Below the pieces are notes generated by a model that made no database searches, was not told the DNA's origin, and was given only the letters and a program-made list of their open reading frames with translations. From Oscillatoriaceae cyanobacterium M7585_C2015_266 (GTDB lineage Bacteria; Cyanobacteriota; Cyanobacteriia; Cyanobacteriales; Oscillatoriaceae), in contig DVEG01000005.1 in NCBI GenBank assembly GCA_015295835.1, positions 186,001-250,000 of the forward strand: DNA of 64,000 nucleotides, written 5' to 3'. Position numbers and translations under genes: made by a program. The first letter of the stretch is position 1. Every line of letters begins with the position of its first letter. This document shows, one piece after another, positions 2,732 through 12,703 of this stretch.

Positions 2732-3577
2732 TTATATTTTGTTTTCCCTCTGACGTTGGCGGCGACTTCCCAACACTCCAACGGCTGCGAATCCCAGCAA
2801 CGCTAAAGTCATACCCGGTTCGGGAACTCTTGCTTCTGGTGTGACGATTCGTGCCGATATGACGAAATCATTATAATCGGCATCTCCCCACCGAGATTCC
2901 CACAAATCCGAATCTTCCATTAAAATTAATGCTTCCCCTGCTGCGGCGGTTATAGTTTTTGTGGGAATGGTGCGGTTGGGATTATTGAGAATCCAATCTG
3001 GTCCTACTAGATTAATAGTAGCTGTTTCCCCACTGGCTATGAATTTGCTTTTACTACCTGAATAGAGGGGGTTAACGCTGTTGGGGTCGCTGTTGTAACT
3101 GCTGAGACCAAAAAAGTAGTCTACTCCCGCTTGGAAAGTAAAACTATTTTTGCTTACTGAATAAGTTTTTCCGGCAGTTCCCAACCAGTCGCCATTGGTA
3201 TCACTGGCATTGGCTATTTCAGAAGTTATCCAGTTGCCATCACTGGCGTAGGGGTTGATACGGTAGGTGGTGGCATCAAACCCTCCTAAATCTTCGCTAA
3301 ATAACTTCTTTACCAAGGTCCCACTTGGTCTGAAAATTACTTCTCCGGTTCTTGTGTCTGTAACTGTTCGGGTTCCTGTCAGTTGGTATACTGCAAAGTC
3401 TGACTGATTTCTGCCGCGAGTTTCTAGTAAGTTGAATTCGACGGTGGTGTCTTTTTCAAACCTAAACACTTGGCTGTGTCTAGAACCAAAGCTAAATGCG
3501 TTTGCTGGGGCTATTGAGCAAGCAATGGCCGCGGCAGCCGTTGTAGCCCCCAGAATTGCTGTATATCTTAATTTCAT
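2732..3577 (-). CDS. PEP-CTERM secreted protein, DUF4114-like
   Basis: A 281-residue exported protein. The start is ATG at 3577, preceded by a strong Shine-Dalgarno (GGGGAGGAG, 3 bases away); a longer in-frame reading to 3664 lacks this. A signal peptide (MKLRYTAILG...APANA) is followed by a beta-rich body. An acidic segment near the end (WGDADYNDFVISARI) looks like the end of a DUF4114-type domain. The C-terminus is a PEP-CTERM sorting signal: VPEPGMTLALLG, a short hydrophobic helix, then a basic tail (RRQRQRENKI). Such proteins are cut and anchored by exosortase in exopolysaccharide-producing bacteria. It lies downstream of a paralogue (3907-4662) on the same strand. The ligand or role is unknown. 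Confidence 0.85.
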   Translation of the reverse strand: MKLRYTAILGATTAAAAIACSIAPANAFSFGSRHSQVFRFEKDTTVEFNLLETRGRNQSDFAVYQLTGTRTVTDTRTGEVIFRPSGTLVKKLFSEDLGGFDATTYRINPYASDGNWITSEIANASDTNGDWLGTAGKTYSVSKNSFTFQAGVDYFFGLSSYNSDPNSVNPLYSGSKSKFIASGETATINLVGPDWILNNPNRTIPTKTITAAAGEALILMEDSDLWESRWGDADYNDFVISARIVTPEARVPEPGMTLALLGFAAVGVLGSRRQRQRENKI

Positions 3578-3906
3578 AGCTCCTCCCCTATAACAATATG
3601 TTTTTTTTAGCCCCGATTGTGTTTCCCTATTTATGTTATATCTTGCTGTACTATTCTTCAGCAAAAATTAATTCTTTTATTAAACTTTTTTACCTATTTT
3701 CTAATTTTATTTTAGATTTTATGAATTTTTATAAACTAAAAACTGGCTTATTTTTCACTGGAAACTCCATAGAAAAATGCCAGCTGCATTAAAAACTGAG
3801 TAAAAGTCAAGAAAATTACCATTTTTGAATTAGAAGTATATGACAGACGCACTCTAGAATTTCAGGCTTTGACAGCTGACAATAATTTCTCTGGGAGAAA
3901 ATTATG
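3578..3906. other. Intergenic region between PEP-CTERM paralogues
   Basis: 329 bases, very AT-rich. It carries the ribosome binding site of the gene ending at 2732. I see no gene, no clear terminator and no clear promoter; a small imperfect palindrome sits around the CAGCTG at about 3780. Confidence 0.6.
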
Positions 3907-4662
3907 TTAAGTAATAGAACGTTGGCGACGGCGTGCTGCGAGCGCACATCCTACCAATCCCAAGCCTCCCAAGGTAGCGGGTTCGGGAACAGAAGCAACT
4001 GGGCGAGCCTGCGCTGTAACACTAAAATCCTGGTAATCTAAATCTGGAATACCTAGTGCATTCCTTGCTCCGCGATCGTCAAAGGAAATTTTTACAAGCC
4101 CTGCAAATGGATCAGCTGATTGAAAATTCTGGGGATTGTCAAATCTTGTTCCATCCGCACCCAGCGAGCCAAATGAGCCAAACACCGCTTGTTGACTGCC
4201 TGCGGGGCTAAGCTCAGAAAGCCACAGCGTACCGTTTTCCGCTGTATTCAAAGCGCTTGTTGAGTATACTTTGCCGTTTTCACCGCTGTCAAGACCCAGT
4301 GTATACATCGTACCCTTTAAAAAGGTAAAAGATACGCTACAGCTTCCTTGTACGGTTTTACCTTCGCCGCAAGTTCCCAACCATCCGTTTGCACTCCAAT
4401 TATCTGAGGCTCTTGTTTCCGCAAATAAATCTTTAACCCATGTAAGCGTATTGTCAGTATTGACTTGAAAAATTTTCAAGATTGACTGAAATGCGCCTCT
4501 CGACTGATAGAAGGTAAACTCGACTTCCGTATCGAAATCAAACTGGATGCCACTCGTTCCAAACTTGAAGGCTTGTGCTGGTGCTTGCCAGGTAGCCAGT
4601 GCTGCAACTGTAGCAGTCAAGTTAACCAACCACAGCTTTTTTATGCTTCCTGTAATACCCAT
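3907..4662 (-). CDS. PEP-CTERM secreted protein
   Basis: A 251-residue exported protein from ATG 4662; a TTG at 4719 would add 19 residues in front of the signal peptide and is less likely, although it has an AAGGG upstream. The signal peptide runs from MGITGSIKKLW to QAPAQA. The body resembles the neighbour at 2732-3577: both start with a phrase like FDFDTEVEFTFYQSRG or FRFEKDTTVEFNLLETRG, and both have an aromatic/acidic stretch before the end (here LDYQDFSVTAQA). The C-terminus is VPEPATLGGLGLVG plus RRRQRS, a PEP-CTERM signal. The two genes look like an old tandem duplication. Function is unknown; surface or matrix location is inferred from the sorting signal. Confidence 0.82.
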   Translation of the reverse strand: MGITGSIKKLWLVNLTATVAALATWQAPAQAFKFGTSGIQFDFDTEVEFTFYQSRGAFQSILKIFQVNTDNTLTWVKDLFAETRASDNWSANGWLGTCGEGKTVQGSCSVSFTFLKGTMYTLGLDSGENGKVYSTSALNTAENGTLWLSELSPAGSQQAVFGSFGSLGADGTRFDNPQNFQSADPFAGLVKISFDDRGARNALGIPDLDYQDFSVTAQARPVASVPEPATLGGLGLVGCALAARRRQRSIT

Positions 4663-5196
4663 TTTGTTTTTATGTTCTAAGTGGGAATAATATCTCTTGT
4701 TATATCTGTTATAGGCCAAGTAACCCTTCTTGGTCTATGCTTTTAGCCTTTCTTTACCAATTCTTTACACTAAGGTCTATTTTGTAAATTTTATGCTAAA
4801 AATTTTTAAATCCGATTGATTCTTTATACTTACAATTTAATTTAATATAAGAAAAAAAATAAAAAAAAATACTTTTCGCTATTTCTAAAAAAGACTGATT
4901 AGTCGTATTTTAAATTAAGCATTTCTCCCTGCAAGTCAGTATAAGGGGCGGTATTGCAAATTATTTCCCATATGTAATTGTGACATCAGCCAGTTTTTTA
5001 ACTGGTACAATACTGGATAGTGCTTCCTTGACAAAAACTCTCTCTAATACTATTGACAAAAATAAAGTTTTATGGTATAATGATAAGTGTTGTTTGTTAT
5101 CGTTGCTACCAGTTGCATATTTGTAGTCAGTAAAGCTAAGATTAAAAACCCCAATTATAATTCCTACCCATCAGCTCATGAATGACTGGAGCAAAA
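4663..5196. other. Divergent intergenic region with promoter
   Basis: About 530 AT-rich bases between the divergent PEP-CTERM gene and the yjbQ-like gene. It holds a consensus promoter at 5053-5081, listed separately, and a leader of roughly 110 bases before the start at 5197. No other gene is visible. Confidence 0.6.
5053..5081 (+). promoter_or_regulatory. Consensus sigma-70 type promoter
   Basis: TTGACA at 5053-5058 and TATAAT at 5076-5081 with exactly 17 bases between them: both hexamers are perfect. Transcription would start near 5088 and run into the yjbQ-like gene. A second TTGACA at 5028-5033 has no well-placed -10 partner. Confidence 0.75.
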
Positions 5197-5866: not shown

Positions 5867-7615
5867 ATGCACCACCTTAAGCAAGATATCAATCAAGGAC
5901 CAATACAGCAGTTTTGGGTGCCTAAAAAAAGAAAGACTTCTAATAATTGCTCTCAAACTTGGTTAGACAAACTGCTCAGACGTTTGGCAATCTATCAGAA
6001 AATTGCTTTGGGATATAGTTTGGCTTTCGGTATAGTTGTATTGGGAAGTGCTGGTGGACAATTTTTAGCAGAAAATTTTATTAAAAATCCGGCTTTAGAG
6101 AAAAGCGATCGCGCTCATCAAGAAGAACGTCTCCTGAGGGCTTTAAAAATTGCCATCTTAGAAGCTCGCTTCCAGCAGCAACAGTTTATTTCTTTAATGG
6201 AAAATCCCAAACAGTGGAAAGTAGAACAAGAACAGTTTTTGAGTAATGTTTATAAACTAAAAGAAAGTTTATCAGAGGTTAATTTAAATAATTTGGATGA
6301 TTCAGCGGATTTAAAAATTTTTATTTTTAATGCGAGAAGTAAAATTAATATTTATCAAAAAAATCTAGAATCAACGTTAAAGCAAATCGAGGCGATGCAG
6401 TTGCTGCCTGAGAGGGTGGAAGAGGCTCGCTCATTATTTTTAGAATTTACAAACAGCAATGTAGCGAGAAAATTAAACAAGATCTCAGATGATTTGAATG
6501 ATTTGATAGAGGCGGCGCAAAGAAAAGTAGAAAAAGCCAAAGTAGATTTAAAAGAAGCGGAGAAAATAAAAGCAGGAATAACTTATGCTAGTTTATTTTT
6601 GTCAGGAGTGAGCGCAGCAGTTATAGCTTACTGGACGAGTCGAGCGATCGCATGTCCAATTAACATGACAACAAAATTTACCCAGAGAGTAACCAAAGAA
6701 GCAAATTTTGAACTGCAAGCACCGGTGTTCACAAATGATGAAATCGGAAAACTAACAACTTCTATAAATCAACTACTCCAAAGAGTAACCATCTACAACC
6801 AAGAATTAAAACAAGCACAAAATGAGCGCGATCGCCTCTTCAATCTCTCATTAGATATGCTCTGCATAGCTGATTTTAACGGCTATTTTAAGCAGCTCAA
6901 CCCAGCCTGGGAAAAAACTTTAGGCTTCTCCATAGAAGAACTGAAAGCAAAACCATACATCGAATTCGTTCATCCGGAAGATCGAGCAGCAACAGTAGCT
7001 GAAACCCAAAAGCTGGCAACTGGTATAATAACAACTTCTTTTGAAAATCGTTATTTATGCAAAGACGGCTCCTATAGATGGTTAACTTGGATAGCTTTTC
7101 CCTCACTTGCAGACGGTTTAATATATGCCGTAGCTCGTGACATCACCAGCGCCAAGCAAAGCGAACAAGAAAAAATACAATTAGCCGAACGCATTCGCCT
7201 ACTACTCGATTCTACCGGGGAAGGGATTTACGGCATCGATTTGGAAGGGCGCTGTGTCTTTATCAATCAAGCGGGGGCTTGTATGCTCGGATACACCCCC
7301 GATGAAATTATAGGCAAAAACATGCACGAGTTTATCCATCATAGTCACGAAGACAGCTCATATTATCAAAATACTGAATGTCCAATTTTTATCAGTTTTC
7401 AAAAAGAACAACCTGTTCGGGTAGAAGGTGAAGTTTTTTGGCGACGAGACGGAACAAGCTTTATTGCCGAATATTCATCTTATCCAATTGTTGATGCTGG
7501 AGAAATTAAAGGGGCTGTTATCGTCTTCAAAGATATTACTGAGCGCCAACAAATGGAAACTGCTCTCAGACAGGCAAATGAGATGCTAGAAATGCGCGTG
7601 CAAGAGCGCACATAA
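5867..7615 (+). pseudogene. Sensor histidine kinase, N-terminal part before in-frame stop
   Basis: Sensory half of a membrane histidine kinase. Read from ATG 5867 (or TTG 5843) it gives 582 residues. There is a first membrane segment near residues 44-65, a mainly helical external region of about 170 residues resembling CHASE3, a second membrane segment near 235-255, a HAMP linker, and two PAS domains with PAC-type ends (VARDITSAKQ, FKDITERQQ). It then runs into the coiled-coil phrase MLEMRVQERT and a TAA at 7613-7615. The same frame stays open directly after the TAA and continues as the rest of the kinase, so this is one gene split by a nonsense codon. ERT followed by any residue and EL is a very common phrase in this family; TAA is one change from CAA, GAA or AAA. 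It may be a true mutation, a sequencing error, or a functional split. Confidence 0.8.
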
Positions 7616-9931
7616 GAATTAAACCGTATTGTAGCTTCACTAAAACAGGAAATCCAAAAACGCCAGGAAATTGAGGAAAATTTATACAAAGAACAAGAGT
7701 TTTTAAATGCTCTGTTAGAGAACCTCTCAGATGGCATCGTTATTTGTGATGCCAATGGAATTGTGACTCGATTCAATCGAAAAACACGCGAGTATTTTGG
7801 ATTGCCGGAATCCTCTATCCTGCCACCGGAAGAATGGTCAAATTACTATGAATTGTACTTTTCAGATGGCAAAACACCGATGCCAAAAGAAGATATTCCT
7901 TGGTATCGGGCATGGCAAGGAGAAAAAATTCAGAATATAGAAATGATAGTCGTACCAAAAAACCAGAAAATGCGAGTGCTCCTAGCTAGCGGAAAAACAC
8001 TCATAGATGCTAAAGGAAATAAAGTAGGGGCTGTGGTGGTAATGCGCGATATCAGCGAGCGGATTCAAAACAAAAAAACACTACAGCAGCGGGAAGAGCT
8101 ACTGCGACAAATCATCCAAAATATGCCAGTGATGATGGTGGCATTAGATCCTTTCAAAAATGTTGTTGTTTGGAACCGAGAGTGCGAACGAGTGACTGGT
8201 TATAGTGCTGCGGAAGTAATCGGTAGTAATAAAGCCTTTGAGTTGCTATATCCAGATCCAGAATATCGTGCAAAGTTGATGGCTGAATGGCAGGAGCGCG
8301 GCAACAACTATCGCAATTGGGAATGGAATGTTACTGCGAAAGATGGTAGTATTAAAGTAATAGCGTGGTCTAATATTTCCGATGAATTCCCGATTCCTGG
8401 TTGGGCTACTTGGGGGATTGGCATAGAGGTGACTGAGCGTGTTCAAGCTGAGGAAGCGCTACGTCTTTCAGAAGAGCAATTCAGGAAACTCGCCCAGCGA
8501 GAAGCACTGCTTAATAAACTTGCCAGCGAAATTCGCAATTCTCTTAATATCGATAGCATTCTAGAAACAACGGTGCAGCAAATCCGCAATATATTACAGA
8601 TTGAGCGCTGTAACTTTGTTTGGTATCGAAACTCTGACTCAGGGCAATCAATCTGGCATGTTGTCAAAGAGTCGAAATTGCCTATTCTTCCCAGTTTTTT
8701 GGGAGAGTATTCAATTCCATTAACTCCCGCCCTCGAAAGATTGCTGAATCTGGAAATAATCTGTGCTGACGATTTGGCAATTTCTACAGATGCCGCTTTC
8801 CAGGAATTTTATAATATTTGGGGCTACACGGCTATTTTATCTCTGCCTATTCAGATGCCTTCTGGTGATATCGGCTTGTTAATTTGTGGTCATCATAGTA
8901 GCCCTCGAATTTGGAGTGAGGATGAAGTGGAATTGCTTACAGCTGTAAGTGATCAAGTGGCGATCGCTATTCAGCAAGCCGAACTCTACAATAAAGCCTG
9001 CTATTCCGCAAAATTAGCTGAGGAGAAAGCAATTCAACTTGAACAAACATTGCGGCAGTTGCAACAAACTCAAGCCCGACTTATTCAAAGCGAAAAAATG
9101 TCGTCTCTTGGGCAGTTGGTTGCCGGAATTGCTCACGAAATCAATAATCCTCTTAGTTTTATCCATGGCAATATCACGCACCTTGATGAATACATCCATA
9201 ATCTACTCGCTTTAGTCAAACTTTACCAGCAACATTTCCCCTACTTTAGCCCCGAAATTCAAAACTTTATCGAGGAGATAGAGCTGGATTTTATTATCGA
9301 AGATATACCTAAACTTATCGCTTCAATGAAAAAAGGAGCCGAGCGGATTAGCAAGCTTGTGCTTTCCTTGCGCAATTTTTCGCGTCTAGATGAAGCGGAT
9401 ATGAAAAAGGTAGATCTTCACGAGGGAATAGAAAATACTTTGCTGATTTTACAAAATAGGTTTAGAACTGCTAATACAAATGGTTCTGAAATTCAGGTAG
9501 TTAAAGAATATGGTAATTTGCCGCTGGTGGAATGCTATGCAGGGCAGTTGAATCAGGTGTTTATGAATATTATTTCTAATGCGATCGACGCTTTGGAAAA
9601 TAAATCAGGAGCTCGTGTAATTAAGATTCGGACTTCCCTAGAAAATGAAGAAGAAGAGATGGGTAATGGAGAATCGCTAATAAGTAATGCCTACGCTGTG
9701 ATTCGTATTGCTGATAACGGTTGCGGTATTAGCGAGGAAATTCGCGATCGCATTTTCGATCCTTTCTTTACTACTAAACCAGTCGGCAAGGGTACTGGGT
9801 TAGGGCTGGCTATTAGCTATCAGATTGTAGTCGAAAAGCACAAGGGTCAATTGCGATTTGTTTCTGCGCCCCATCAGGGTACGGAATTCGAGATTTTTAT
9901 TCCCATTCATTCTCGCAACAATAATGTCTGA
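7616..9931 (+). pseudogene. Sensor histidine kinase, C-terminal part after in-frame stop
   Basis: Continuation, in the same frame, of the gene starting at 5867. It encodes two further PAS domains (about 7690-8075 and 8090-8455), a GAF domain (about 8500-8980), a coiled coil and the catalytic core. The phospho-acceptor histidine lies in AGIAHEINNP. The ATP-binding domain is complete: N box NQVFMNIISNAIDAL, G1 DNGCGI, F box DPFFTTK, G2 [14 protein letters not shown]. The first possible start after the stop is a GTG at 7763 inside the third PAS domain with no ribosome binding site, so this half is not an obvious independent gene. The core closely resembles the next gene (10259-12703). No response regulator lies nearby. 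Confidence 0.8.
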
Positions 9932-10258: not shown

Positions 10259-12703
10259 ATGTTCATCGTAGAAGCTGATCAATTTAAAAATTTCAGTGAT
10301 TGCAGACTCCCGGAAACAGGAGAAGAGATTTTTTTTCAACTGTCGTCAGATTTAATGGCAGTGATTGGTTTTGACGGCTATGTCAAGCGTCTGAACCCGA
10401 TGTGGGAAAAAACTTTGGGCTTTAAAAAGGAAGAGTTATTAGGAAAACCTTTAATGGAATTGATTCATCCGGAAGATTGGCCATCAACCATAGCTCAAGG
10501 GCAAAAACTTGCTAGGGAAATTAATTCAACAATCACGTTTGAGAATCGCTATCGCTGTCAAGACGGTTCGTATAAATGGCTGAAGTGGCAGGCGACGTGT
10601 GTACCGAAAGAACACTCAATATACGCGATAGCGCGCGACATTACGGCGACAAAACAAGCAGAAGAATTGCAAATTAAAGAGCAGAGATTTCAAGCAATTT
10701 TTGAGAATGCACCGATTGGGATGGTGATCGCAACATTAGAAAATCAACACATTCTCAAAACCAACAAAATGCTACAAAAGATATTGGGTTACAGCGAAGC
10801 AGAAATGTTGGGATTGAGTTTGAATGAGTTTGTACATCCAGAGGATTTAACCGAAGAGAAAGAAAATTACCAGCAACTTTTAACTGGTGAGCAAGAATAT
10901 GTTAAAACAGAAAGACGCTACTTGCGTAAAGATGGGCAATTCATTTGGATACGTTTGATTATTGCCGTAGTACCCAGAGAAGGAGAACCGCAATTGGCGA
11001 TTATTTTAGTTGAAGATATTACTGATAAAAGACAAATAGAGGAGCAACTACAGCGATCGCTAAAAGAGTTATCGGATATTAAAATAGCCCTAGATCGCTC
11101 TGCGATCGTTGCCATCACCGATCCGCAGGGTAAAATTACCCACATAAATGATAAGTTTTGCGAAATTTCCAAATATTCTCGACAAGAATTAATTGGCCAA
11201 GATCATAGAATCCTCAATTCAGGCTACCATTCTAAAGATTTTTTTAAAGAAATGTGGGCAACAATTGTCAGCGGAAAAATTTGGAAAGGGGAGATAAAAA
11301 ATAAAGCTAAAGATGGCAGCTATTATTGGGTAGATACTACTATTGTGCCTTTTTTAAATAACAGAGGAAAACCAGAACAATTTTTAGCAATACGCTATGA
11401 GATAACCAAAAGGAAACAGGCGGAGGAGCAAATAAAAGCATCGCAAATATTTTTAAAATCTTTGTTAGAGAATTTGCCGATAAGCGTTTTTACGCTCCAG
11501 GCGAAAGAAAATAAAATAGTATTTTGGAATCGAGCGAGCCAAAATTTATTTGGCTATAACAAAAAAGAAGTGATCGGCAAAAATTACAGAGAATTATTTA
11601 CAGCAATAGGAGCAGATTGGCTGAATAACAGCAGCCAGAAAGTGCAAGAAAACAGCCAAAAAGCAGAGCTAGAAGAAGAAAGTATTCACACGCCACATCA
11701 AGGTATTCGAATTGTTAGAACTCGCCTAATACCGATTTGCGATGCAGCTGGGAAGATAGAGTATATATTAGGAATTGCAGAAGATATTACAGAGCAGAAA
11801 AGAATTGAGGCAGCGTTAAAAAAATCGGAGACGCAGTGTAAAGAAAAATATCTGCAGTTGGAAAGAACGCTTTGGGAATTGCAGCACACTCAGAGCCAGC
11901 TAGTGCAAGCGGAAAAAATGTCAACATTAGGTCAATTAGTGGCGGGGGTAGCGCACGAAATTAATAACCCGATCAATTTTATTTACGGAAACTTGATACA
12001 CGCAGAAGAATACGTAGGCAATTTGCTAGAGCTACTGCAACTTTATAAGCAGAAATATGCGACAGAGCAGGAAATAGCGGAGCGGGCAGAAGCCCTAGAT
12101 ATAGATTTTATTACGGAAGACTTGCCGAAATTACTGGCTTCGATGAAAATGGGAGTGAACCGCATCCGTGACATAGTACTTTCTTTACGAAATTTTTCCC
12201 GCCTGGATGAAGCTAAAATGAAGCCCGTCGATATCCATGAGGGGCTAGAAAGTACCCTGCTGATTTTGCAGCACCGATTCAAAGCCAATGTAGAAAGAGT
12301 GGGAATCGAGATAGTAAAAGAATATGGAGATATACCGTTAGTAGAGTGTTTTGGCGGGGAACTAAACCAGGTGTTTATGAATATTATTTCCAATGCGATC
12401 GACGCTTTGGAGAATAAACCGGCGCCGCGAATAATAAGAATTAGAACTGAAAAAGGTAATGCCCAATCCGTTGTTATTCGCATTGCCGACAACGGTATTG
12501 GCATGACAGAAGACGTAAAAAGTCACTTATTCGAGCCTTTCTTTACGACAAAACCAGTTGGGAAAGGTACCGGATTAGGATTGTCTATCAGCTATCATAT
12601 CGTCGTGGAAAAACACGGCGGTGTTTTAAAATGCATATCCCAACCTGGGCAAGGCACTGAATTTATTATTGAAATTCCAATTGCTCAAAGACAAACAGCA
12701 TAA
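10259..12703 (+). CDS. Cytoplasmic multi-PAS sensor histidine kinase
   Basis: An 814-residue soluble histidine kinase with no membrane segment. Four PAS domains follow one another (about residues 20-135, 140-260, 270-390 and 395-515), each ending in a PAC phrase such as IARDITATKQ or VEDITDKRQ. A short coiled coil leads to the kinase core: phospho-acceptor histidine in AGVAHEINNP near residue 565, N box NQVFMNIISNAIDAL near 703, G1 DNGIGM, F box EPFFTTKP and G2 [14 protein letters not shown]. The core and the first PAS are clearly paralogous to the broken kinase upstream, including the linker LVLSLRNFSRLDE versus IVLSLRNFSRLDE. No cognate regulator is adjacent, so the output is unknown. The signal could be redox, light or a small ligand. 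Confidence 0.9.
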   Translation: MFIVEADQFKNFSDCRLPETGEEIFFQLSSDLMAVIGFDGYVKRLNPMWEKTLGFKKEELLGKPLMELIHPEDWPSTIAQGQKLAREINSTITFENRYRCQDGSYKWLKWQATCVPKEHSIYAIARDITATKQAEELQIKEQRFQAIFENAPIGMVIATLENQHILKTNKMLQKILGYSEAEMLGLSLNEFVHPEDLTEEKENYQQLLTGEQEYVKTERRYLRKDGQFIWIRLIIAVVPREGEPQLAIILVEDITDKRQIEEQLQRSLKELSDIKIALDRSAIVAITDPQGKITHINDKFCEISKYSRQELIGQDHRILNSGYHSKDFFKEMWATIVSGKIWKGEIKNKAKDGSYYWVDTTIVPFLNNRGKPEQFLAIRYEITKRKQAEEQIKASQIFLKSLLENLPISVFTLQAKENKIVFWNRASQNLFGYNKKEVIGKNYRELFTAIGADWLNNSSQKVQENSQKAELEEESIHTPHQGIRIVRTRLIPICDAAGKIEYILGIAEDITEQKRIEAALKKSETQCKEKYLQLERTLWELQHTQSQLVQAEKMSTLGQLVAGVAHEINNPINFIYGNLIHAEEYVGNLLELLQLYKQKYATEQEIAERAEALDIDFITEDLPKLLASMKMGVNRIRDIVLSLRNFSRLDEAKMKPVDIHEGLESTLLILQHRFKANVERVGIEIVKEYGDIPLVECFGGELNQVFMNIISNAIDALENKPAPRIIRIRTEKGNAQSVVIRIADNGIGMTEDVKSHLFEPFFTTKPVGKGTGLGLSISYHIVVEKHGGVLKCISQPGQGTEFIIEIPIAQRQTA

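Follow-up and report, generated by a model that had tools for sequence, protein, structure and literature searches.

A multi-PAS sensor histidine kinase gene interrupted by a single in-frame stop codon in an Oscillatoriaceae cyanobacterium

Organization of the interrupted locus

The window, i.e. the whole 64,000-nt stretch of the genome of Oscillatoriaceae cyanobacterium M7585_C2015_266 that was analyzed, contains a long coding region that starts with ATG 5867 and is interrupted by a TAA codon at positions 7613-7615 (surrounding sequence: CAAGAGCGCACATAAGAATTAAAC). The TAA lies inside the phrase QERT-stop-ELN and is in frame both with the ATG and with the downstream frame, which continues to position 9931 with no frameshift. 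The initial annotation had described a kinase split by a single in-frame TAA, with the same frame on both sides, and the frame and its translation bear this out. The upstream part is open to position 7612 and comprises 582 codons from ATG 5867, a start supported by alignment to relatives, or 590 codons from TTG 5843. The downstream part comprises 771 open codons, from 7616 to a natural stop at 9929-9931. At the genome's GC content of 44%, stops make up about 5.6% of random codons, and simple arithmetic gives a probability of about 1e-20 for a run of this length, so the open stretch that follows the TAA cannot be due to chance.

When the two halves are joined, the order of domains is membrane sensor, HAMP, PAS, PAS, coil, PAS, PAS, GAF, HisKA and HATPase (Table 1). 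Contiguous domains were thus found on both sides of the stop, in agreement with the earlier statement that the same protein plan continues through the GAF, His and ATPase domains. PAS families exceeded their curated cut-offs in both halves, TIGR00229 (PAS S-box) matched both halves, and the HATPase_c domain scored 82.6 bits (cut-off 26.4). The HisKA match, at 22.3 bits, did not reach its cut-off (26.9), although the region does contain the AHEINNP motif. A search of NCBIfam gave generic PAS and kinase matches, none of them above the equivalog cut-off among the matches listed. On the basis of these domains, the gene is predicted to encode a cyanobacterial multi-PAS membrane sensor histidine kinase.

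Table 1. Features of the interrupted kinase gene (positions are those of the window).
Feature	Position	Strand	Remarks
N-terminal part, 582 aa: membrane sensor region, HAMP, two PAS domains, start of coil	5867..7615	+	ends at the premature TAA
HAMP domain	6680..6787	+	weak, below the Pfam cut-off; 62-67% conserved with relatives
PAS domain 1	6833..7156	+	domain match; about 70% identity to relatives
PAS domain 2	7187..7537	+	domain match
Premature in-frame TAA	7613..7615	+	in the coil between PAS domains 2 and 3
C-terminal part, 771 open codons to the natural stop	7616..9931	+	no start codon of its own ahead
PAS domain 3	7715..8062	+	domain match; contains GTG 7763
PAS domain 4	8099..8356	+	domain match
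GAF domain	8549..8971	+	domain match
HisKA region, phospho-acceptor motif AHEINNP	9107..9190	+	weak, below the Pfam cut-off
HATPase_c domain, N, G1, F and G2 motifs intact	9545..9907	+	domain match; motifs read in the sequence

The first potential start codon (ATG, GTG or TTG) past the TAA is GTG 7763, located 147 nt downstream. The initial annotation had placed this GTG inside a PAS domain and considered it the only start after the stop. It is indeed the first one and lies within PAS domain 3, but it is not the only one: further in-frame ATG, GTG or TTG codons are present at 7802, 7853, 7880, 7943, 7970, 8033, 8036, 8042 and other positions, and those listed up to 8042 all fall inside this domain or right at its end.

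The gene that follows immediately on the same strand is intact and encodes another multi-PAS histidine kinase (10259-12703; 814 aa). Two genes on the minus strand (2732-3664 and 3907-4719) encode proteins with a PEP-CTERM-like sorting tail, recognized by eye from a VPEP motif, a hydrophobic stretch and a basic end.

Uninterrupted relatives of the kinase

The nearest genomes compared were seven of other genera of the same family, and a scan of named genomes revealed only distant relatives, nearly all of them from cyanobacteria. The genome that contains the window (35 contigs) has a size of 3.98 Mb, versus 6.4-8.6 Mb for near-complete genomes of its family, and its smaller size may reflect gene loss in the lineage.

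The three closest relatives of the interrupted gene encode intact multi-PAS histidine kinases, each as a single ORF with a sense codon at the position of the TAA: G007:C3 (L065 6057-10346, minus strand; 1429 aa), G002:C9 (L067 10913-15283, plus strand; 1456 aa) and G005:C32 (L068 7915-12216, plus strand; 1433 aa). They share with the window gene an N-terminal membrane sensor, HAMP, PAS and coil and a C-terminal PAS, coil and kinase; unlike it, they are uninterrupted, carry two extra PAS-like segments and have no GAF domain. Each alignment begins near residue 26 of the window protein, passes through the stop position as far as PAS domain 3, and resumes over PAS domain 4 and the kinase. Identity amounts to 42-43% upstream of the stop and 62-63% downstream. 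Given the missing GAF domain and the extra PAS-like segments, the three are close relatives that differ in part of their insertions and are not necessarily one-to-one orthologues. In all three genomes the intact relative likewise adjoins another large multi-PAS kinase gene. A 1189-aa kinase of G004, a genome of another genus of the family, matches from the sensor region up to and including the stop region, and again from GAF to kinase.

The residue at the stop position is alanine in the three closest relatives. Most of the other relatives in which the ERT phrase is clear also have alanine, which is the commonest residue wherever the alignment is good; further residues occur as well, and none of the relatives aligning there has a stop. 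The 37 codons directly after the TAA, ahead of any start codon, share 51-54% identity with relatives, and this stretch therefore descends from coding sequence. The initial annotation had called for a comparison with sister strains; made with three species of the same family, it revealed uninterrupted genes with a sense codon at the site, from which it follows that the stop is derived and that the ancestral gene was in one piece. Single TAA or TAG codons in the frames of G010, G005:C34, G007:C1, G003:C2 and G032 were considered as conserved counterparts of the stop and rejected; they are the terminal stops of those genes, and the aligned stretches are stop-free.

One relative of the same sensor family, G006:C179 (L145, minus strand), switches to another reading frame at about 3034-3061, on passing from an N-terminal part of 400 aa to a C-terminal part of 779 aa. 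The G006 genome is fragmented and 66% complete, and G004, with its uninterrupted 1189-aa protein, belongs to the same genus. The frame change is either a frameshift or a draft error.

Origin of the stop codon

We consider a recent nonsense mutation in a single multi-PAS sensor kinase gene, within the coil between PAS domains 2 and 3, to be the probable origin of the TAA. Relatives encode sensor and kinase as one uninterrupted polypeptide, which in the window is broken at 7613-7615; a premature stop where intact relatives have a sense codon is what is expected of a pseudogene. The frame and domain plan, which carry on past the stop, together with the downstream identity to relatives, count for a nonsense mutation. 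Against it counts the fact that the codons of alanine, the commonest residue at the site in well-aligned relatives, are two changes away from TAA; however, other residues occur there as well, and the ancestral codon in this lineage need not have been one for alanine. Three options had been named in the initial annotation, i.e. a fresh nonsense mutation, a sequencing error and a natural split. Comparison with relatives favours the first, leaves some room for the second and makes the third unlikely.

Neither a second stop nor a frameshift was found in the 771 downstream codons. If the downstream half evolved neutrally, about 104.5 new stops would be expected for each unit of substitutions per site, with transitions given a weight of 2; their lack limits the neutral divergence accumulated after the event to between ~0.007 (50%) and 0.03 (95%) substitutions per site. 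With no further lesions, the break is very recent, or it is an error, or the downstream half is still under selection. This total lack of other damage is equally expected from an error or from a downstream half that is still used.

The main rival explanation, to which we assign distinctly lower probability, is that the TAA arose by base-calling or assembly error and that the kinase is intact and in one piece in the living strain. The rest of the gene is undamaged, the relatives are intact and the draft assembly consists of 35 contigs, all of which suits an error. However, assembled genomes rarely contain single-base substitution errors; homopolymer indels are the commoner type, and the site is not one of these. 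A further argument against an error comes from the background rate of such breaks. Sixty stretches of the same genome and the window (1.23 Mb in total) were scanned for adjacent same-frame segments with coding composition. Among the 56 candidate pairs, only that of the window united two long halves, a strong coding signal before as well as after the stop, and a first start codon far from it. Five other pairs were translated, of which four look like neighbouring genes and one is a gene followed by a tail that is not coding in that frame; the remaining 50 were judged by scores and start distance alone. Since the window pair is unique in the 1.23 Mb, breaks of this sort, be they due to decay or to poor sequence, are not widespread in the genome. 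An error-rich or decaying genome was therefore rejected as an explanation.

It appears improbable that the locus is a working split, in which the sensor half and the PAS-PAS-GAF-kinase half would be separate proteins, the latter translated from an internal start, that work jointly or independently. The downstream half has kept all catalytic motifs, and the in-frame GTG codons 8033 and 8036 are preceded by the purine-rich sequence AGTAGGGG. However, no start codon overlaps the stop or follows close behind it, and the first one, inside a PAS domain, has a poor ribosome-binding site. In our judgement (no simulation was made), the best candidate sites are about what chance would give for some 30 start codons. 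Initiation at GTG 8033/8036 was rejected, as its putative ribosome-binding site is unremarkable among the ~30 starts and itself encodes the conserved PAS phrase GAVVVMRD. An internal promoter was also rejected: the segment 6474-8660, in which the second half begins, contains no forward promoter-like site. The whole region has 16 promoter-like sites versus 10.7 (sd 3.3) in shuffled sequences. The relatives are unsplit, so that the locus shows neither a start signal proper to a second gene nor the conservation in relatives expected of a natural two-gene split.

Low-level read-through of the TAA, yielding a little full-length kinase, is the least credible explanation: there are reports from across the prokaryotes of in-frame stops with purifying selection retained (PMC7918605), but the leaky codon in that study is TGA and not TAA, no stop occurs at this position in any aligned relative, and TAA is the ordinary main terminator in this genome, ending 263 of the 504 ORFs of at least 300 aa in the 1.23 Mb. 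We likewise doubt strongly that the stop is maintained, with the gene working either as a two-piece sensor kinase (a membrane sensor half and a soluble kinase half) or as a low-dose read-through kinase.

Predicted consequences and known parallels

If a nonsense mutation is the cause, translation from ATG 5867 to 7613 would yield a sensor that is anchored in the membrane and has two PAS domains but lacks the catalytic part. Little or nothing of the PAS-PAS-GAF-kinase half would probably be translated, and the signal output of the kinase would thus be lost. That the living strain truly carries the stop and makes nothing from the downstream half is inferred. At the DNA level, matches to other kinases number in the dozens in the same genome, and these many other kinases would probably make the loss tolerable.

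The product of the cyanobacterial gene spkA is a Ser/Thr-type kinase. In glucose-tolerant substrains of Synechocystis sp. PCC 6803 this gene is broken by a frameshift, while in other substrains it is intact; like the window gene, it codes for a cyanobacterial signalling kinase and has been disrupted by a single small mutation (PMC10068330). It differs in that its lesion is a one-base frameshift with known strains and a known phenotype, whereas the window contains a histidine kinase gene with a substitution-type stop, seen in one strain. Prokaryotic genes that, like the window gene, carry one in-frame stop and are otherwise intact tend to keep it for a short time only (Belinky et al. 2021, PMC7918605). 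That work was based on sets of close genomes, whereas the window gene was compared only with other genera.

The window case is of the same ordinary kind as spkA and is not a new kind of system. A true two-piece or read-through kinase would be an unusual way of tuning a sensor, and nothing found points there. The locus should be annotated as one disrupted histidine kinase gene rather than as two genes, and the finding has little importance beyond annotation.
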